The notes under the pieces: generated by a model
What the model was told of the DNA's origin: nothing
What the model saw: only the letters and a program-made list of their open reading frames with translations
Databases searched by the model: none
Position numbers and translations under genes: made by a program
Shown here: positions 51,069 through 62,000 of the stretch, piece by piece
How the letters are laid out: each line of letters starts with the position of its first letter
Position numbering within the stretch: position 1 is the stretch's first letter
Assembly (NCBI RefSeq): GCF_000184745.1
Contig: NC_014931.1
Coordinates: 3,968,001 to 4,032,000 of the forward strand
From: Variovorax paradoxus EPS
GTDB taxonomy: Bacteria; Pseudomonadota; Gammaproteobacteria; Burkholderiales; Burkholderiaceae_C
Reading direction: 5' to 3'
DNA: 64,000 nucleotides

Positions 51069-51656
51069 ATGCGTTTTTTCGTCCTACCCGCGTCCCTCCT
51101 CTTTGCCGTCGCTGTTCATGCAGCCCCTCAACAGGACCGACCCGATGACGAATTGGCCGGCTTGCTCGCAGACAAGGGCCTGATCAGCCAGCTCAAGCAG
51201 GTCCGTCAAACAGTCACCGAACGAACTTCCGACCTGGTGGTGACTGCCATCGGTTTCCTCGGAGTTCCTTACCGCCGCGGCGGTAACACGGCGGAATCCG
51301 GTTTCGATTGCAGCGGCTTCGTCCGCGCGATGTACAACCAGACCGTCGGCCACATGCTCCCCCGCCGCGCCGAAGAGCAAGCCGCCGCCACCGAAAAAAT
51401 CGATCGCAGCCAGCTCAAGCCCGGCGACCTCGTGTTCTTCAACACCATGCGCCGCGCCTTCAGCCATGTCGGCATCTACGTCGGCGAAGGCAAGTTCATT
51501 CATTCCCCCCGCTCCGGCGCGCAGGTTCGTGTCGAAGACATGAACGGTAGCTACTGGCAGCGCCGCTTCGACGGCGCCCGCCGCGTGCTCGGCGGCGCAG
51601 TACCGACCGAAGAGATCAAGGCCGCAGCGGCCAACGCCCGCACCGGCGACGACTGA
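51069..51656 (+). CDS. NlpC/P60 (C40) cell-wall peptidase
   Basis: A 195-residue exported peptidase that likely cleaves peptidoglycan stem peptides. The signal peptide (M-R-F-F-V-L-P-A-S-L-L-F-A-V-A-V-H-A, cleavage near residue 18) is followed by the C40 domain (about 55-175). Catalytic Cys81 is in F-D-C-S-G-F-V, His133 in F-S-H-V-G-I-Y, and the third polar residue is His145 in F-I-H-S-P. No lipobox is present, so it should be soluble in the periplasm. It stands alone, with its own promoter and a strong terminator. Confidence 0.93.
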   Translation: MRFFVLPASLLFAVAVHAAPQQDRPDDELAGLLADKGLISQLKQVRQTVTERTSDLVVTAIGFLGVPYRRGGNTAESGFDCSGFVRAMYNQTVGHMLPRRAEEQAAATEKIDRSQLKPGDLVFFNTMRRAFSHVGIYVGEGKFIHSPRSGAQVRVEDMNGSYWQRRFDGARRVLGGAVPTEEIKAAAANARTGDD

Positions 51657-51679
51657 TCGCCCTCCCCGCATCCAAGACG

Positions 51680-51707
51680 AAAAAATCCCGCCGCGGCGGG
51701 ATTTTTT
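51680..51707. terminator. bidirectional rho-independent terminator
   Basis: A 28-base perfect palindrome: A-run, ATCCCGCCG/CGGCGGGAT, T-run. It ends the C40 peptidase gene on the plus strand and the PDH operon (lpdA stop 29 bases away) on the minus strand. Confidence 0.92.
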
Positions 51708-51735
51708 GTGGGCGCTCGATGGCGCCCCTGGCCGA

Positions 51736-53568
51736 TCAGGCCGCCTTCTTTGCTGGCGGCAGGTCGGTGCAAGTGCCGTGCGCCACTTCCGCCGCCATGC
51801 CGATGCTTTCGCCCAGCGTCGGATGCGGATGGATGGTCTTGCCGATGTCGATCTCGTCCGCACCCATCTCGATGGCCAGCGCGATCTCGCCGATCATGTC
51901 GCCCGCATGCGTGCCGACGATGCCGCCGCCCAGGATGCGATGCGTCTCGGCGTCGAACAGCAGCTTGGTGAAGCCCTCGTCGCGACCGTTGGCGATGGCG
52001 CGGCCCGAAGCGGTCCACGGGAAGTGGCCCTTCTTGACCTTGATGCCTTCGGCCTTGGCCTGGTCTTCCGTGAGGCCGACCCACGCCACCTCGGGGTCGG
52101 TGTAGGCGACGCTCGGGATCACACGGGCGTTGAAGGCGGCGCTGGAGAGCTCCTTGTCGCCCTTCTGCTCGCCGGCGATCACCTCGGCCGCCACATGGGC
52201 CTCGTGCACCGCCTTGTGCGCCAGCATGGGCTGGCCCACGATGTCGCCGATGGCGAAGATGTGCGGCACGTTGGTGCGCATCTGGATGTCGACCGGAATG
52301 AACCCACGATCGCTCACCGTGACGCCGGCCTTCTCGGCGCCGATCTTCTTGCCGTTGGGGCTGCGGCCCACGGCCTGCAGCACCAGGTCGTACACCTGCG
52401 GCTCCTTGGGCGCGTTCTCGCCCTCGAAGGTGACCTTGATGCCTTCCTTCGTGGCTTCGGCGCCGACCGTCTTGGTCTTCAACATGATGTTGTCGAAGCG
52501 CGGTGCGTTCATCTTCTGCCAGACCTTCACCAGGTCGCGGTCGGCGCCCTGCATGAGACCGTCGAGCATTTCGACCACATCGAGGCGCGCGCCCAGCGTC
52601 GAATACACCGTGCCCATTTCGAGGCCGATGATGCCGCCGCCCAGCACGAGCATGCGCTTGGGGTCGGTGCCCATTTCGAGCGCACCGGTGGAATCCACGA
52701 TCCGCGGATCGCCCTTGGGCATGAACGGCAGGCTGACCGACTGCGAGCCGGCCGCGATGATCGCGTTGCGGAATTTGACGGTCTGCTTCTTGCCGGTGGT
52801 GTCCCAGCTGGTGCCGGAGGTTTCTTCGACTTCCAGGTGGTACGGATCGATGAAGTTGCCCACGCCGCGCAGCACCGTCACCTTGCGCATCTTGGCCATG
52901 GCCGTGAGGCCGCCGGTGAGCTTGCCCACCACTTTGTTCTTGTGGCCGAGCAGCTTGGCGCGGTCGACCGTGGGCGCGGCGAAGCTCACTCCCAGGTCGG
53001 CGAAGTGCTTGACCTCGTCCATGACCGAAGCCACGTGCAGCAGCGCCTTCGAGGGGATGCAGCCGACGTTCAGGCACACACCGCCGAGGGTGGCGTAGCG
53101 CTCGATCAGCACGACCTTCAGGCCCAGGTCGGCCGCGCGGAAAGCTGCCGAATAGCCGCCGGGGCCGGCGCCGAGCACGATCACGTCGCACTCGACATCG
53201 ACCTTGCCGCCATAGGTGGATGCGACAGGCGCTGCGGCCGGAGCTGGCGCAGGTGCCGCGGCCTTGGGCGCAGGAGGCGCTGCGGCAGGCGCCGGCGCAG
53301 CGGCGGCCGGAGCAGCAGCCGCGGCAGCCCCCTCCACCTCCAGCGTCAGCACGACCGAGCCTTCCTTGACCTTGTCACCCACCTTCACGGCAATGGCTTT
53401 CACCACGCCGGCCGCAGACGACGGAATCTCCATCGAGGCCTTGTCCGATTCGACCGTGATCAGCGACTGCTCGGCCTTGACCGTGTCTCCGACATTGACC
53501 AGCACCTCGATCACCGCGACTTCGTCGAAGTCGCCGATGTCGGGCACCTTGATTTGTTGTTCGCTCAT
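51736..53568 (-). CDS. lpdA: dihydrolipoyl dehydrogenase (E3) of pyruvate dehydrogenase, with N-terminal lipoyl domain
   Basis: A 610-residue E3. Residues 1-80 are a lipoyl domain (lipoylated Lys43 in E-S-D-K-A) and residues 81-120 an Ala/Pro linker; the rest is the flavoprotein, with FAD motif G-A-G-P-G-G-Y-S, redox cysteines C165/C170 in [14 protein letters not shown] motif G-G-G-I-I-G-L-E and C-terminal H-P-H-P-T-L-G-E. The lipoyl extension is known in betaproteobacterial and neisserial PDH E3. The ATG overlaps the stop of the preceding proteasome-like gene (ATGA). Confidence 0.95.
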
Positions 53569-54158
53569 TTGGACACTTTCAGTTTGAGTGTGAGAACGTC
53601 GACCGGTGGGGCCGAATTGCGATCGAATTCGCAGGCGGCGGCGATCCCCGCCTCCGCCACGTCGCGCGCGCTGCGCGACTTGATGTCATAGGCCGCGTGC
53701 ATGGCGCCGAGCGCAAAGCTGCGTCCCGAACCGATGGCCCAGAACTCCTTGAACTCGAACACCTCGCGGTAGCTGTAGATGCCGTAGATGCCGCTCTGGT
53801 TGGCCATCAGCATCGTGAACTGGCTCGACTCGTAGGGCTCGTGGTCGTCTTCCTTGGTCTGCATGAAGAACGAGTCCTTGAGCACCGGATGCAGCATCGT
53901 GAAGGTGCGGAAGATTTCGTGCTTGCTGCCGAACAGGAGCTTCTCGCGCTCCTGCGCGGCCAGCGCGTGCTGCAGCACCAAAAAATGGGCCGCGGCGCCG
54001 GCCATGGCGAACAGGCTGGTGCCCGCCGCGTCCTCGACGGTGAAGATCTTCTGGTTCTTCTCGGCGCGGTGCGAGAGCCGCGTGTCGCCGAAGGTCACCA
54101 GTGAATCGGCTGCCATCGTGACCTGGCCGCCTTTGCGGACGGCCACTACGGTGGTCAT
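53565..54158 (-). CDS. HslV/proteasome-like Ntn hydrolase, probable betaproteobacterial proteasome homologue (BPH)
   Basis: A 197-residue protein beginning M-T-T-V-V-A-V-R. Removal of Met would expose a catalytic N-terminal Thr, as in HslV and proteasome beta subunits. Counting that Thr as 1, the proteasome residues Asp17 (M-A-A-D-S) and Lys33 (R-A-E-K-N) fall exactly in register, and A-I-G-S-G-R-S-F-A matches the HslV I-G-S-G turn. It is longer than HslV and has inserts around residues 90-125. I assign it to the BPH group, which forms double rings without a known ATPase. Both ends overlap neighbours as ATGA, coupling it to aceF and lpdA. The cellular substrate is unknown. Confidence 0.85.
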
Positions 54159-55834
54159 AGCAGGATTCGACGGTAGTCCGCGAGCACTTGCCCAAGGTAG
54201 GCGTTGAAGCGCGCAGCCAGAGCCCCGTCGATCACGCGGTGGTCGTAAGACAGCGACAGCGGCAGCGTCAGGCGCGGCACGAACTGTTTGCCGTCCCACA
54301 CCGGTTTCATCTGGCCCTTGGAGAGGCCGAGGATGGCCACTTCGGGGGCGTTGATGATGGGCGTGAAGTGCGTGCCGCCGATGCCGCCGAGCGAGCTGAT
54401 CGACATGCAGCCGCCCTGCATGTCGGCCGAGCCGAGCTTGCCGTCGCGCGCCTTCTTGGCGAGCTCGCCCATCTCGGCGCTGATCTGCAGAATGCCCTTC
54501 TTGTCGGCATCTTTCAGCACCGGCACCACGAGCCCGTTGGGCGTGTCCGCCGCGAAGCCGATGTTGAAGTACTGCTTGTAGACGAGCTGGTCGCCATCCA
54601 GGCTGGCGTTGAAGTCGGGGAATTTCTTCAGCGCCGCGACCACCGCCTTGATCACGAAGGCCAGCATCGTGACCTTCACGCCCGACTTTTCGTTCTCCTT
54701 GTTGGTGGAGACGCGGAAGGCCTCGAGCTCGGTGATGTCGGCTTCGTCGTTGTTGGTGACGTGCGGAATCATCACCCAGTTGCGGTGCAGGTTCGCGCCG
54801 CTGAGCTTCTTGATGCGCGATAGGTCCTTGCGCTCGACCGCGCCGAACTTGGCGAAGTCGACCTTGGGCCACGGAATGAGGCCCAGCGCCGCGCCATCCG
54901 CGCTGCCACCACCGGCCGGCGCCTTGGCCGCCGAGGCCTTGGTGCTGGCCTGGCCGCTCATCACGGCCTTGGTGAAGCCCTGGACGTCTTCCTGCGTGAT
55001 GCGGCCCTTGGGACCGGAGCCCTTGACCTCTTCGAGCGGCACGCCGAGTTCGCGGGCGAACTTGCGTACCGACGGCGAAGCGTGCGGCAGGTTGGCGCTG
55101 GGCGCCGTGGTGGGATCGTGCGGTGCAGCGGCGGCTGCCGGGCTTGCGGCCGGCGCCGGCGAAGCAGCGGCCGGCGCGGGGGCGCTGGCGGTTGCCGCGG
55201 CCGGGGCTGCTGCGGCAGCTTGCGCAGGCGCGGGTGCGGCAGCACCTGCCGAACCTTCCAGGATCGCGATCAGGTCACCGATGTTGACCGTGTCGCCGAC
55301 CTTGACCTTGAGCTCCTTCAGCACGCCGGCACCCGACGACGGAATCTCCATCGAGGCCTTGTCCGACTCCACCGTGATCAGCGACTGGTCGGCCGCGATC
55401 GTGTCGCCGGGCTTGACCAGCAGTTCGATGACCGCGACGTCCTTGAAATCGCCGATGTCCGGCACCTTGATCTCGACCGGTCCGGAGGCTGCTGCGGGCG
55501 CGGCAGCCGGTGCAGGCGCCGTGGCTGCGGGTGCCGGAGCGGCAGCCGCAGGAGCCGGAGCTGCTGCAGGCGCGGGGGCCGGTGCGGCGGCGGCACCTTC
55601 GGCCTCCAGCACGAGCACCACCGAGCCCTCTTTCACCTTGCCGCCGATCTCGACCTTGATTTCCTTGACCACACCGGCCGTCGAAGAAGGAATCTCCATC
55701 GACGCCTTGTCCGATTCCACCGTGATGAGCGACTGCTCGGCCTTGACCGTGTCGCCCACCTTCACCAGCACCTCGATCACCGCGACTTCATCGAAATCGC
55801 CGATGTCCGGCACCTTCACTTCCACTGCTGCCAT
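54155..55834 (-). CDS. aceF: dihydrolipoyl acetyltransferase (E2) of pyruvate dehydrogenase
   Basis: A 559-residue E2 that passes the acetyl group to CoA. Two lipoyl domains are visible, with lipoylated Lys43 and Lys159 in E-S-D-K-A. Long Ala/Pro linkers (80-117, 200-250) separate them from the subunit-binding domain (about 256-292; [13 protein letters not shown]) and the catalytic core (about 325-559) with [12 protein letters not shown] 55834 follows the aceE stop by 49 bases. Its stop is part of the next gene's start (ATGA). Confidence 0.96.
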
Positions 55835-55883
55835 ATCGTTGTCTCCCGCCGCGAGGCGCCGTTCGTTCGTTGGTTGTTGATGT

Positions 55884-58613
55884 TCAAGCGTAGAGCGGGT
55901 TGACCTTGTCGACATTGATGCCGTACTTCTTGATCGCTTCCACCACCTTGGCCACCGGCACGGTGCCATCTTCGCTCAGCGCCTTGAGCGCGGCCACCAC
56001 GATGTAGTGACGATTGATCTCGAAGTGTTCGCGCAGCTTGTTGCGGAAGTCGCTGCGGCCGAAACCGTCGGTGCCCAGCACCTTGTAGGTGCGGCCCTTC
56101 GGAATGAAGGGGCGGATCTGTTCCGCATAGGCCTTCATGTAGTCGGTCGATGCGACCACCGGGCCGGTCGTGGGCGCGAGTTGCTCGGCCACGAAGGGCA
56201 CGCGCGGGGTCTGGTCGGGGTGCAGCAGGTTCCAGCGGTCGGCGTCCTGGCCGTCGCGGGTGAGCTCGTTGAAGCTCGGGCAGCTCCACACGGAAGCCGA
56301 CACGCCCCAGTCCTTCTCGAGCAGCTCTTGCGCCGCGAAGCTCTCGCGCAGGATGGTGCCGCTACCGAGCAGTTGCACGGTCGGCGCTTCCTTGCTGCCC
56401 TTGGCGGCCTTGACCACCGGCCCCTGCTTGGACAGGTACATGCCCTTGATGATCTGCTCTTCGGTGCCGGGCTGCAGGCCTGGCATCGCGTAGTTCTCGT
56501 TCAGCAGCGTCAGGTAGTAATAGACGTTGTCCTGCTTCTCGACCATGCGCTTCAAGCCATGGTGCAGGATCACGCCGACTTCGTGCGCGAAGGTCGGGTC
56601 GTAGCTCACGCAGTTCGGGATGGTGTTGGCCAGGATGTGGCTGTGACCGTCTTCGTGCTGCAGGCCTTCGCCGTTGAGCGTAGTGCGCCCCGAGGTGCCG
56701 CCCAGAAGGAAGCCGCGCGCCTGCATGTCGCCGGCCGCCCAGGCCAGGTCGCCGATGCGCTGGAAGCCGAACATCGAGTAGTACACGTAGAACGGCACCA
56801 TGATGCGGTTGTTCGTGCTGTACGAGGTGGCCGCCGCGATCCAGCTGGACATGCCGCCGGCCTCGTTGATGCCTTCCTGCAGGATCTGGCCGGCCTTGTC
56901 TTCCTTGTAGTACATGACCTGGTCTTTATCGACCGGGGTGTACTGCTGGCCTGCGGGGTTGTAGATGCCGATCTGGCGGAACAACCCTTCCATGCCGAAG
57001 GTGCGGGCTTCGTCCACCAGGATGGGCACCACGCGCGGACCGAGCGCCTTGTCGCGCAGGAGCTGCGTGAGGAAGCGAACGTAGGCCTGCGTCGTCGAGA
57101 TCTCACGGCCTTCGGCCGTGGGTTCCATCACCGACTTGAAAGTCTCGAGCGAGGGCACCGTGAAGCTCTCGTCGGCCTTGGTGCGGCGGTGCGGCAGGTA
57201 ACCGCCCAGGGCCTTGCGGCGCTCGTGCAGGTACTTCATTTCCGGGGTGTCGTCAGCCGGCTTGTAGAACGGCAGGTCGGCGATCTGGCTGTCCGGGATC
57301 GGGATGTTGAAGCGGTCGCGGAAGGCCATGATGTCCTCGTCGCTCAGCTTCTTGGTCTGGTGGACGTTGTTCTTGCCCTCACCGATCTTGCCCATCCCGA
57401 AGCCCTTGACCGTCTTGATCAGGAGCACCGTGGGCTGGCCCTTGTGCTTGACGGCCGCGTCGAAGGCCGCGTAGACCTTCTGCGAGTCGTGGCCGCCGCG
57501 GCGCAGCTGCCAGATGTCGTCGTCGCTCATCTTGGCGACCATCTCCAGCGTGCGCGGATCGCGGCCGAAGAAGTGCTTGCGTACGTAGGCACCGTCGTTG
57601 GCCTTGAACGACTGGTAGTCGCCGTCGTTCGTCTCCATCATGATCTTGCGGAGGGCCCCTTCCTTGTCGCGTGCTATCAACTGGTCCCAGCCGCTGCCCC
57701 AGATCAGCTTGATGACGTTCCAGCCCGAGCCGCGGAATTCGCCTTCCAGTTCCTGGATGATCTTGCCGTTGCCGCGCACCGGGCCGTCCAGGCGCTGCAG
57801 GTTGCAGTTGATGACGAAGACAAGGTTGTCCAGGCCTTCGCGCGCTGCGAGGCCGATGGCGCCCATCGATTCGACTTCGTCCATTTCGCCGTCGCCGCAG
57901 AACACCCAGACCTTGCGGTTCTCGGTGTTGGCGATGCCGCGGGCATGCAGGTACTTGAGGAAACGAGCCTGGTAGATGGCCATCAGCGGTCCGAGGCCCA
58001 TCGACACCGTGGGGAACTGCCAGAACTCGGGCATCAGCTTCGGATGCGGGTAGCTGGAGAGACCCTTGCCGTCCACTTCCTGGCGGAAGTTGAGCAGTTG
58101 CTCTTCGGTCAGGCGGCCTTCAAGGTAGGCGCGGGCGTAAATGCCGGGGGAGACGTGGCCCTGGATGTAGAGGCAGTCGCCGCCGTGGTTTTCGCTCTCG
58201 GCGTGCCAGAAGTGGTTGAAGCCGGCGCCGAACATGTTCGCCAGCGAGGCGAAGGAGCCGATGTGGCCGCCGAGGTCGCCGCCTTCAGGGGGATGGTGAC
58301 GGTTGGCCTTGACCACCATCGCCATCGCGTTCCAACGCATGTAGGCGCGCAGGCGCTCCTCGATCTCGAGGTTGCCGGGGCAACGCTCTTCCTGATCGGG
58401 CTCGATGGTGTTGACGTAGGCGGTGTTGGCAGAGAACGGCTTGTCGATGCTGTGCTGCCGGGCATGTTCGAGCAGCTGCTCGAGAAGGAAGTGGGCCCGC
58501 TCCGGACCCTCGCTCTGGATGACGGAGGACAGTGCATCCATCCATTCACGGGTCTCCTGGGCGTCCGCATCGTTTGCGGCCGAGCCGAACAGGTTCTCGG
58601 GATTTGCCGACAT
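55884..58613 (-). CDS. aceE: pyruvate dehydrogenase E1 component (homodimeric type)
   Basis: A 909-residue thiamine-diphosphate enzyme that decarboxylates pyruvate and acetylates the E2 lipoyl arm. The TPP motif runs from [10 protein letters not shown] to V-I-N-C-N, and [10 protein letters not shown] and [13 protein letters not shown] are typical of the AceE family. G-G-A-G with strong A-A-A lacking rules out the alpha2beta2 form. AAAAGGAGA precedes the ATG. It heads the aceE-aceF-BPH-lpdA operon and is divergent from a two-component system across 217 AT-rich bases. Confidence 0.97.
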
Positions 58614-58830
58614 GCTTGTCTCTCCTTTTAGGGCTGTGGCTGTAATTTAGTGCGCTCTGCAATAAACGCGGGCGAGTTTCGCATAGAAATCCCGTTATTT
58701 CAAATGGCGCATGATGATTTCTTATTGTGATATTTTTTGTGAGTTTCCAAGCCGAACGCGACCGCAACCGGATCAATGGCACTGGCGCTTTTCCGTCAGC
58801 TCTCAAGGGGCAATCCCCTAAACTCGCCGG

Positions 58831-61371
58831 ATGCCCCTCTCCTCCCCGCTGGCGGTTGCCCGCAGTGCCGTGAATGCCTCGCCGCTCTCCTGGTGGCGCC
58901 GCTGGTGGCGTCGACAAACGCCGGTCCTGCAGGACGCGGTCGCCATGCTCGCGCCGATGGCGGCAGTGCTGCTTTTCCTCGCGGCCATCGTTTCCGCTTT
59001 CTGGTATCTGCGAACCGAGGAAGTCGAGCGCGAGCAGGAGTCGGTACGCCGCGACGTCGAATACGCCCAGCAGCGCATGCGCCTTCGGTTGCTGGAGCGC
59101 CAGGAACAGTTGATGCGCATTGCGCGCGATGCGTCCAACCGCGAGATCGACCCGACCGAGTTCACGAGCCGCGCCGAATCGCTCGTGAGCCAGTTCCCCG
59201 AGTTGCAGACCATCACCTGGATCGACGACCGCCGCCGCTTCAAGGCCGGCTATGCGGCGCCCAGCGTGCATCCCGCGCAGCAGCACCTGATCGGCGACGT
59301 GCTGCGGCCCGGCGACATCGAAAGCAACTACGCCCTGGCGCGCGAACTGCGCCAGCCGGTGTATTCGCAACCCGTGGCCGGCGGCGATCCGGCCGCGATG
59401 CTGCAGTTGCACATTCCTCTTTTCGATCAGGGCCTGTTCGCGGGGGTGGTGCTCGGCGAGTTCTCGGTCGATGGGCTGCTGCGCTACGGCATGCCTTCTG
59501 AAGTGCAGGCGCGCTACGCGGTCTCGCTGCTCGACGCCAAGGGCAACGTGATCGCCGGCAACACGACCAACCTGAAGGACAGCGGCACGCGGCTGCTGCC
59601 CTGGTCGGAGCGCACCAACGAATACGAGGTGCCCGTGTCCCCCGTCGGCAATGCGCTGATCCTGCGTGCGCAGGCTTACCGCACCTCGCAGGGCGTGGTG
59701 GGCAACGGCCTCTTCTGGCTGGTCTGCGCGCTCAGCGTGCTCACGAGCTGGATGCTGATCGGCACCTGGCGCCACACGCGCCGACGGCTGCAGGCCCAGC
59801 AACGCCTGGTCGCCGAGACGAATTTCCGCCGAGCAATGGAAAACTCCATGCTGACCGGCATGCGCGTGCTCGACCTGCAAGGCCGCATCACCTACGTGAA
59901 CGCCGCGTTCTGCGCGATGACCGGCTGGAGCGAAGCCGAACTGGTCGGCCAGTCGCCGCCCTTTCCCTACTGGCTGGAATCCGACCGCGAAGTGATGAAC
60001 GAGCGGCTCGAAGAAGAGCTGCACGGACGCGCCCTCCCCGGCGGCTTTCAGGTACGCGTGAAGCGCAAGAACGGCAGCGTGTTCAACGCCCGCCTCTACG
60101 TCTCTCCACTGATCGATGCGCGCGGCCATCAGACCGGCTGGATGACGTCGATGACCGACATCACCGAGCCGACGCGCATCCGCGAGCAGTTGTCGGCGTC
60201 GTACGAACGCTTCACCACGGTGCTCGAGGCGCTCGATGCGGCGGTGTCGGTCGCGCCCATCGGCAGCGAGGAACTGCTGTTCGCCAACAAGCTGTACCGC
60301 CTCTGGTTCGGCTCCGACACCGTGGGCCACTTGGGCATGGTGGCGCAGGCCGGCGTGCCGGCGTCGAACGCGCACGACGAGGGCCTGGACGACGTGGACC
60401 CGTACGCCGGTCTTCCCATCGACACGCTCACCGCCGCGCAAGCCGCCAACAACGAAATCTTCGTGCCGCACCTCGGCAAATGGCTCGAAGTGCGCTCGCG
60501 CTACCTGACGTGGGTGGACGGCCGTCTTGCGCAACTCGTGATCGCCACCGACATCACGCCGCGCCGCGATGCCGAGGAGCAGGCAGCCGCGCAGGCGGAC
60601 AAGGCCCAGGCCGCGAGCCGCCTGATCACGATGGGTGAAATGGCATCGAGCGTGGCACACGAACTCAACCAGCCGCTCACGGCCATCACCAACTACTGCA
60701 ACGGGATGATGTCGCGCATCAAGGGGCAGACGATCGACACCGAGGCGCTGCTTGCAGCGCTGGAGAAGACATCGAAGCAGGCCCAGCGCGCCGGCCAGAT
60801 CATTCAGCGCATCCGCTCTTTCGTGAAGCGCAGCGAACCGAACCGCACGCCTGCCGACGTGGCCACCATGGTGAGCGAAGCCGTCGAGCTCGCGGGCATC
60901 GAGCTGCGCCGCCGCAACGTGCGCCTGAACCACTACGTGGCCGCGCGGCTGCCGGTGGTGCGGGTCGATCCGATCCTGATCGAGCAGGTGATGGTCAACC
61001 TGCTGAAGAACGCGGCCGAATCCATCGACCTCGCCGACCGGCCGCTCGCGCGCCGCAGCGTCGAGCTGCGCGTGCTGCCCAAGACCATCGAGGGGCAGAA
61101 CGCCATCGAGTTTTCGGTGCAGGACACGGGCAAGGGCCTGTCGCCCGAAGTCATGGACCGGCTGTACGAAGCCTTCTTCTCCACCAAGCCCGAAGGCATG
61201 GGCATCGGGCTGAATCTGTGCCGCACCATCGTCGAGTCGCACCGCGGCCGGATGCAGGCGGAGAACATCTACAATGGCCCGGATGTGATCGGATGCCGTT
61301 TTTCCTTCTGGATTCCGGTGTTGGACGCTATCAGTTCCGTAGCTAGCGACGAGGCAAAGGTACCTGCATGA
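58831..61371 (+). CDS. membrane-bound PAS-domain sensor histidine kinase (FixL/DctB-like)
   Basis: An 846-residue sensor kinase. Two transmembrane helices (about 38-60 and 291-312) enclose a periplasmic sensor domain of about 230 residues. Two PAS domains follow (about 332-450, with I-T-Y-V-N-A-A-F-C-A-M-T-G-W, and about 455-585). The kinase core comes next: phospho-acceptor H610 in V-A-H-E-L-N-Q-P-L, N box L-L-K-N-A-A-E-S, and G boxes D-T-G-K-G-L and G-M-G-I-G-L. The stop overlaps the response-regulator start (ATGA). The ligand is unknown; the position beside aceE suggests a carbon or redox signal, which is inference. Confidence 0.93.
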   Translation: MPLSSPLAVARSAVNASPLSWWRRWWRRQTPVLQDAVAMLAPMAAVLLFLAAIVSAFWYLRTEEVEREQESVRRDVEYAQQRMRLRLLERQEQLMRIARDASNREIDPTEFTSRAESLVSQFPELQTITWIDDRRRFKAGYAAPSVHPAQQHLIGDVLRPGDIESNYALARELRQPVYSQPVAGGDPAAMLQLHIPLFDQGLFAGVVLGEFSVDGLLRYGMPSEVQARYAVSLLDAKGNVIAGNTTNLKDSGTRLLPWSERTNEYEVPVSPVGNALILRAQAYRTSQGVVGNGLFWLVCALSVLTSWMLIGTWRHTRRRLQAQQRLVAETNFRRAMENSMLTGMRVLDLQGRITYVNAAFCAMTGWSEAELVGQSPPFPYWLESDREVMNERLEEELHGRALPGGFQVRVKRKNGSVFNARLYVSPLIDARGHQTGWMTSMTDITEPTRIREQLSASYERFTTVLEALDAAVSVAPIGSEELLFANKLYRLWFGSDTVGHLGMVAQAGVPASNAHDEGLDDVDPYAGLPIDTLTAAQAANNEIFVPHLGKWLEVRSRYLTWVDGRLAQLVIATDITPRRDAEEQAAAQADKAQAASRLITMGEMASSVAHELNQPLTAITNYCNGMMSRIKGQTIDTEALLAALEKTSKQAQRAGQIIQRIRSFVKRSEPNRTPADVATMVSEAVELAGIELRRRNVRLNHYVAARLPVVRVDPILIEQVMVNLLKNAAESIDLADRPLARRSVELRVLPKTIEGQNAIEFSVQDTGKGLSPEVMDRLYEAFFSTKPEGMGIGLNLCRTIVESHRGRMQAENIYNGPDVIGCRFSFWIPVLDAISSVASDEAKVPA

Positions 61372-62000
61372 GTTTGATTCCGAAGAAGGGCACGGTCTAT
61401 GTCGTCGACGACGACGAAGCCGTACGCGATTCGCTGCAATGGCTGCTCGAAGGCAAGGACTACAGAGTCCGCTGTTTCGATTCCGCCGAATCCTTTCTCT
61501 CCCGATACGACCCGCGCGAAGTCGCCTGTTTGATCGTCGACATCCGCATGGCCGGCATGACCGGCCTCGAATTGCAGGATCGGTTGATCGAGCGGCGCTC
61601 CCCGCTGCCGATCGTGGTCATCACCGGTCACGGCGACGTGCCGATGGCGGTCGACAGCATGAAGAAGGGCGCGATGGATTTCATCCAGAAGCCTTTCAAC
61701 GACGAAGAACTCGTCACGCTGGTCGAGCGCATGCTCGAACATGCGCGCGGCGCGTTCACACAGCACCAGCAGTCGGCCAGCCGCGACGCGCTGCTGTCCA
61801 AGCTCACCGGCCGTGAGGCGCAGGTGCTCGAGCGCATCGTCGCCGGCCGCCTGAACAAGCAGATCGCCGACGACCTGGGCATCAGCATCAAGACGGTGGA
61901 GGCGCACCGCGCCAACATCATGGAAAAGCTCAACGCCAACACCGTGGCCGATCTGCTGAAGATCGCGCTCGGCCAAGCGGCCCCTGCTGCCAAGGCCTAG
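61368..62000 (+). CDS. FixJ/NarL-type response regulator
   Basis: A 210-residue regulator. The receiver domain (about 8-125) has the acidic pocket D14-D16 in V-D-D-D-E, phospho-acceptor D58 in L-I-V-D-I-R-M, the T of V-I-T-G-H-G-D and the conserved Lys in I-Q-K-P-F. The C-terminal LuxR-type HTH (about 140-200) includes L-T-G-R-E-A-Q-V-L and [19 protein letters not shown]. It is coupled by ATGA overlap to the kinase, so they are a cognate pair, FixL/FixJ-like in layout. Target genes are not visible from sequence. Confidence 0.94.

Follow-up and report, generated by a model that had tools for sequence, protein, structure and literature searches.

The analysed window comprises 64,000 nucleotides of the Variovorax paradoxus EPS genome. 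Four genes on its minus strand are arranged in the order aceE-aceF-BPH-lpdA, with families assigned by matches to curated models or Pfam. The group is headed by aceE (55884..58613), which encodes the homodimeric E1 component of the pyruvate dehydrogenase complex (PDC; TIGR00759, 1428 bits), and 49 nt separate it from the start of aceF (54155..55834). The latter encodes the E2 component with two lipoyl domains (TIGR01348, 761 bits; Biotin_lipoyl twice, E3_binding, 2-oxoacid_dh), while lpdA (51736..53568) encodes an E3 component with an N-terminal lipoyl domain (TIGR01350, 478 bits; Biotin_lipoyl at 5-76). Between them lies an ORF of 197 codons (53565..54158, minus strand) opening with Met-Thr-Thr, identified from sequence matches, active-site residues and a fold model as the gene of a betaproteobacterial proteasome homologue (BPH). 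The aceF stop overlaps the BPH start by ATGA, and the BPH stop overlaps the lpdA start in the same manner. Both the 197-residue frame with Thr after Met and the two overlaps had been pointed out in an earlier, sequence-only reading of this DNA, and both were borne out. The double ATGA overlap was found in 30 of 35 Variovorax loci versus 5 of the 58 PDC-type loci in a wider survey; it is mainly a Variovorax feature.

The BPH product matched Pfam PF00227 with 43.1 bits (cut-off 22.4), which is far beyond chance. Its closest known relatives are the BPHs of Cupriavidus metallidurans (Cm-BPH; Rmet_1198, PDB 5ovu) and Thiobacillus denitrificans (Td-BPH; 5ovs, 5ovt), described in PMC5777263. The sequence scored 202 bits against 5ovu and 112 bits against 5ovs, compared to 33.5 bits for the best HslV, and is thus nearer to BPH than to HslV or the 20S proteasome. 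An AlphaFold2 monomer model (pLDDT 91.4, pTM 0.88) had a proteasome-type Ntn fold, and the top three matches in a structure search with this model were the three BPH structures, with 38-49% identity over the aligned structure. The proposal of a BPH with an Ntn fold is therefore well supported, and the gene is a genuine, already described BPH. The match to the curated HslV models stayed below both cut-offs (45.2 of 137 and 43.3 of 157.75 bits), as did that to two 20S proteasome models (40.1 of 224 and 19 of 191.9 bits). The protein further differs from HslV in its long acidic pore loop and in its neighbours, aceF and lpdA, with no adjacent hslU. More distant relatives include 20S beta subunits, connectase and other proteasome-like homologues, as outlined in the excerpts of PMC8665760 drawn on here. 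The host genome carries a true hslV elsewhere, followed by a frame judged by eye to encode an HslU-like ATPase. Replacement of HslV by BPH was rejected, since HslV exceeded its cut-off in 40 of 50 BPH-bearing and 126 of 150 BPH-less genomes of the family (counted by eye; p 0.52). PF00227 counts aimed at a third proteasome-like gene were unreliable, as some BPH-bearing genomes gave fewer matches than expected.

The active site of the window BPH consists of the nucleophile Thr at residue 2, Asp18, the catalytic Lys37, the oxyanion Gly54 and a GSG motif at 143-145; an elongated, net acidic pore loop spans approximately residues 98-114. To assess conservation, 200 of the 203 loci collected in the survey described below were aligned (L186, L187 and L284, broken or partial, were left out). 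Residue 18 (mature Asp17) is D in 198 sequences and E in 2, and residue 37 (mature 36) is Lys in all 200. Conservation extends to Gly54, the GSG motif and the acidic loop; the loop was net acidic by 4-5 in 58/58 PDC-type rows. The sequence-only reading had placed Asp17 and Lys33 in exact register with the proteasome and HslV. This holds for Asp17; residue 34 (mature 33) is Lys in the window BPH, but Ala predominates in its column, where Val, Asp and Arg are also frequent. Lys-37 of Td-BPH, named as the catalytic equivalent of proteasome Lys-33 (excerpts of PMC5777263), aligns with residue 37, and the stretch before the catalytic Lys is therefore three residues longer than that of the proteasome. 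Judged from this alignment, the register of Lys33 was a coincidence. Among 30 of the 35 Variovorax loci, the median dN/dS of BPH was 0.173 (389 pairs), compared to 0.068 (426 pairs) for the catalytic part of aceF, so BPH is under purifying selection that is looser than that on aceF.

BPH, a relative of the proteasome with solved structures, has no known substrate. According to the excerpts of PMC5777263 on which this account relies, Cm-BPH and Td-BPH form tetradecamers, closed double rings that react with epoxomicin; despite this binding, BPH was inert on the peptides and casein tried, and neither a substrate nor peptidase activity emerged from the assays. In the same excerpts, pull-downs from C. 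metallidurans, with and without cross-linker, yielded no PDC subunit, no HslU and no other partner, and oxidation tests were negative, with unchanged carbonylation patterns. The prevailing gene contexts named there are arg, PDC and Hsp33. The PDC operon context was reported for C. metallidurans and is already known, while Td-BPH, unlike the window BPH, is encoded in an arginine operon. A further detail that sets the window BPH apart from Cm-BPH and Td-BPH is its double ATGA coupling, found mainly in Variovorax.

The survey described here turns a published example of operon context into counts. Of 163 relatives, 80 were retained as the closest named loci (with Variovorax, Xenophilus, Ramlibacter, Polaromonas, Curvibacter and Caenimonas among the record titles), and all 80 carried the PDC label. 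In the draw from the host family, 50 of 200 genomes matched BPH, two of them (G045 and G101) in pieces only, and no BPH was found in the remaining 150. The order draw gave matches in 119 of 300 genomes, 3 of them at HslV level; G287, G324 and G395 (about 20 bits) were excluded from the BPH count. Of the 321 genomes in the class draw, 62 matched, only 37 of them (own included) above 70 bits, plus a broken gene in G675; weaker matches at class level (about 36 bits or less) were also excluded, apart from the G675 pieces. At phylum level, 6 of 299 genomes matched at E <= 1e-10, all within the host class. The search of 72,556 plasmid records (E 1e-5) returned a single match, annotated as HslV, and plasmid carriage of BPH was rejected on this basis.

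In total, 203 BPH loci were collected. A context label required a same-strand match within 700 bp (for PDC, aceF upstream or lpdA downstream), and for each kind of non-PDC neighbour a single representative was tested against curated models. The contexts were PDC (60 loci), hslO (44), argG (41), ribD-BPH-ribE (26) and other (32). PDC-type loci had aceF before and lpdA after BPH on one strand in 59 of 60 cases, the contig of the remaining one ending after BPH. Within the host family, the label was PDC in 50/50 BPH-bearing genomes, and BPH was found nowhere else there. The suggested fixed linkage to the PDC operon is thus supported within the lineage, by these genomes and the 80 closest named loci. 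The earlier reading had set such conservation against a gene lying next to aceF in this lineage only and at random elsewhere: adjacency to aceF was indeed limited to one part of the BPH tree, but the other loci were mostly in other fixed operons, with 32/203 in none of the four. Hence PDC linkage belongs to one part of the tree and is no general rule. Of the argG-type loci, 38/41 carried yajQ on the opposite side of BPH, and in 16/41 the upstream gap was 298-361 bp, leaving room for a small gene.

The 26 loci with ribD-BPH-ribE on one strand (L139-L153, L155-L164 and L284, the last a broken gene) came from families outside the host order, sampled in the class draw, and all encode Ser-1. Upstream gaps were below 60 bp in 24/26 and downstream gaps below 30 bp in 21/26, so that this arrangement, too, looks like an operon. 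The word riboflavin does not occur in the main text of either PMC5777263 or PMC8665760, and a limited search of the open-licence literature was likewise empty. As a fourth context, ribD-BPH-ribE may be new. Five Ser-1 BPHs (L232, L248, L255, L272 and L274) were located inside the host order, which in the taxonomy used we take to be the classical Betaproteobacteria, and five Thr-1 BPHs (L165, L166, L276, L279 and L280) outside it; the latter are all divergent and may belong to other families. These ten loci are exceptions to the published split, as the excerpts of PMC5777263 assign Ser-1 to all BPHs outside Betaproteobacteria. Two genomes, G315 (L259/L272) and G354 (L260/L274), carry two BPH copies each, a Thr-1 form by argG and a Ser-1 form elsewhere.

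A BPH tree was built from 119 of the 203 rows, after dropping broken and odd-length rows and limiting each combination of family and context to 3 rows (host family, 14); it had no outgroup, was midpoint-rooted and left 37 of 116 branches open. The five context labels required 9 changes on this tree, compared to a mean of 72.1 after shuffling. For the PDC label 1 change sufficed, compatible with one entry into the gap between aceF and lpdA, and 21 of the 23 PDC rows formed a starred clade. The branch joining all 23 had a support of 0; the two f21 loci were left unplaced beside four rows of other context. These two may represent a second entry, but the position of BPH in the PDC operon probably derives from one ancestral move.

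From the 150 BPH-less family genomes, 60 were hand-picked to favour good assemblies and cover many genera, and same-genus partners of four BPH-bearing genomes were among them; no BPH was seen at the aceF loci of these 60. In 56 of them lpdA came directly after aceF: in 55 the gap measured -4 to 132 bp and the lpdA product had an N-terminal lipoyl domain, and in 1 this domain was missing. Of the others, 3 had a longer insert and 1 showed no lpdA within reach. A lipoyl-E3 was encoded downstream of aceF in 58/60, and two lipoyl motifs were present in E2 in 49/60, compared to 16/18 genomes with BPH (a simple pattern count). Nearly all of these genomes seem to retain an intact PDC operon, and a tie between BPH and a special PDC architecture was rejected on the E3 layout and the E2 motif counts. 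The longer inserts (L311, L323 and L341) comprised one DUF4253 protein and, for the other two, presumed ORFs without a Pfam match; they indicate that the aceF-lpdA junction accepts insertions. Four genera contained one BPH-bearing and one BPH-less species each (G071/G177, G070/G176, G143/G011 and G194/G092) and offer natural comparison pairs; the BPH-less member of each is among the 56 with lpdA directly after aceF. In the first pair, the BPH-bearing species has BPH and two spacers, while its partner has a short gap reading AAGGAG before lpdA. In G101 (L187), only BPH residues 1-40 and 140-196 are left between aceF and lpdA, 12 bases apart, which argues for loss of BPH.

On a tree of the catalytic part of aceF, of low resolution with 11 of 117 branches starred, BPH presence required 25 changes over 110 family rows, and 27 over all 120 rows (shuffled mean 40.5), at least 7 of these being forced by starred branches; such counts do not tell gain from loss. 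BPH presence is thus clustered on the aceF tree. In 46 genomes, protein distances correlated at 0.55 for BPH-lpdA, 0.32 for BPH-aceF and 0.32 for aceF-lpdA, and in each case 0 of 999 permutations reached the observed value. This is as expected of a jointly inherited operon, although the excess for BPH-lpdA could be read as co-evolution. The mean log distance was 0.355 for BPH, compared to 0.18 and 0.233 for its neighbours.

Taken together, these data make it fairly probable that BPH is an ATP-independent protease, general or narrow in range, that rides on a housekeeping operon. By homology, the 197-aa subunits would lose Met and expose Thr-1; by analogy with Cm-BPH and Td-BPH, they would form two heptamers joined in a closed double ring, its active sites facing inward and its pore lined by an acidic loop, and would work without HslU or another dedicated ATPase. 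We infer that cellular substrates are proteolysed, the likeliest job being the ATP-independent cutting of a restricted range of unfolded, damaged or peptide substrates able to thread the acidic pore. The gene would have moved once into the ancestral aceF-lpdA gap, thereafter being passed on together with the operon and repeatedly lost. From the PDC operon it presumably obtains steady housekeeping transcription, plus translational coupling in Variovorax, and PDC would act as an expression vehicle rather than being a proven substrate. Rare moves and stable inheritance explain the context pattern, in which other clades mostly have BPH in other fixed operons, better than a special need of PDC. Given these operons and its frequent loss, BPH is probably no dedicated PDC component.

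It has to be weighed against this that the rigid aceF-BPH-lpdA position (59/60 survey loci; PDC label in 50/50 family genomes) would also be predicted if BPH were made beside E2 and E3 for PDC quality control, removing misfolded, unlipoylated or oxidised E2 or lipoyl-E3. The PDC label of all 80 named loci (80 kept of 163), the overlaps in Variovorax and the restriction of BPH to this one site in the host family favour such a role. It nevertheless appears unlikely, given that no BPH was found in 150/200 family genomes, of which 58/60 inspected keep lipoyl-E3, that the two-lipoyl motif occurs with and without BPH (16/18 and 49/60), that unrelated operons (hslO, argG/yajQ, ribD/ribE) host BPH in other clades, and that, in the excerpts of PMC5777263, pull-downs with or without cross-linker contained no PDC subunit and carbonylation was unchanged. 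The PDC-specific role proposed from the coupling alone is accordingly not supported. A modular, operon-delivered proteolytic chamber that became fixed in a different housekeeping operon in each clade (aceF-lpdA, ribD-ribE, argG-yajQ, hslO), might act on host-operon products and has Ser-1 in place of Thr-1 in the riboflavin clade is a distinctly less likely proposal, for which the Ser-1 riboflavin subfamily offers a second, independent setting of the idea that the neighbour is the substrate. Scattered absence (25 changes in the 110 family rows, and 7 or more that starred branches force in all 120), the remnant in G101 and the faster evolution of BPH than of its neighbours are what a vestigial gene would show, one being lost and kept mainly through its position in a highly expressed operon, but dN/dS of 0.173 and the conserved active site point to continuing selection, and we regard this as improbable. 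Least probable of all is that BPH is no protease in the host clade and serves as a narrow Ntn amidase or ligase (compare connectase, a ligase) on a modified or specific target, such as lipoyl- or another acyl-lysine. Inertness on peptides and casein despite epoxomicin binding (excerpts of PMC5777263), the point that 'proteasome-like' need not mean polypeptide hydrolysis (excerpts of PMC8665760) and the lipoyl proteins encoded by the neighbours of the window BPH are in its favour; however, a closed ring with internal sites would suit unfolded chains better than folded lipoyl domains, and the active site and loop are shared by clades without a lipoyl neighbour.

Positions 51500-59000 were scanned for promoters and terminators: 0 promoter-like sites were detected where chance predicts 0.5, and 7 terminator-like sites where it predicts 5.7. 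Divergent from aceE, a PAS histidine kinase and a LuxR-type response regulator are encoded at 58831-62000 on the plus strand, their genes overlapping by 4 bases; this pair may take part in the regulation of the operon.
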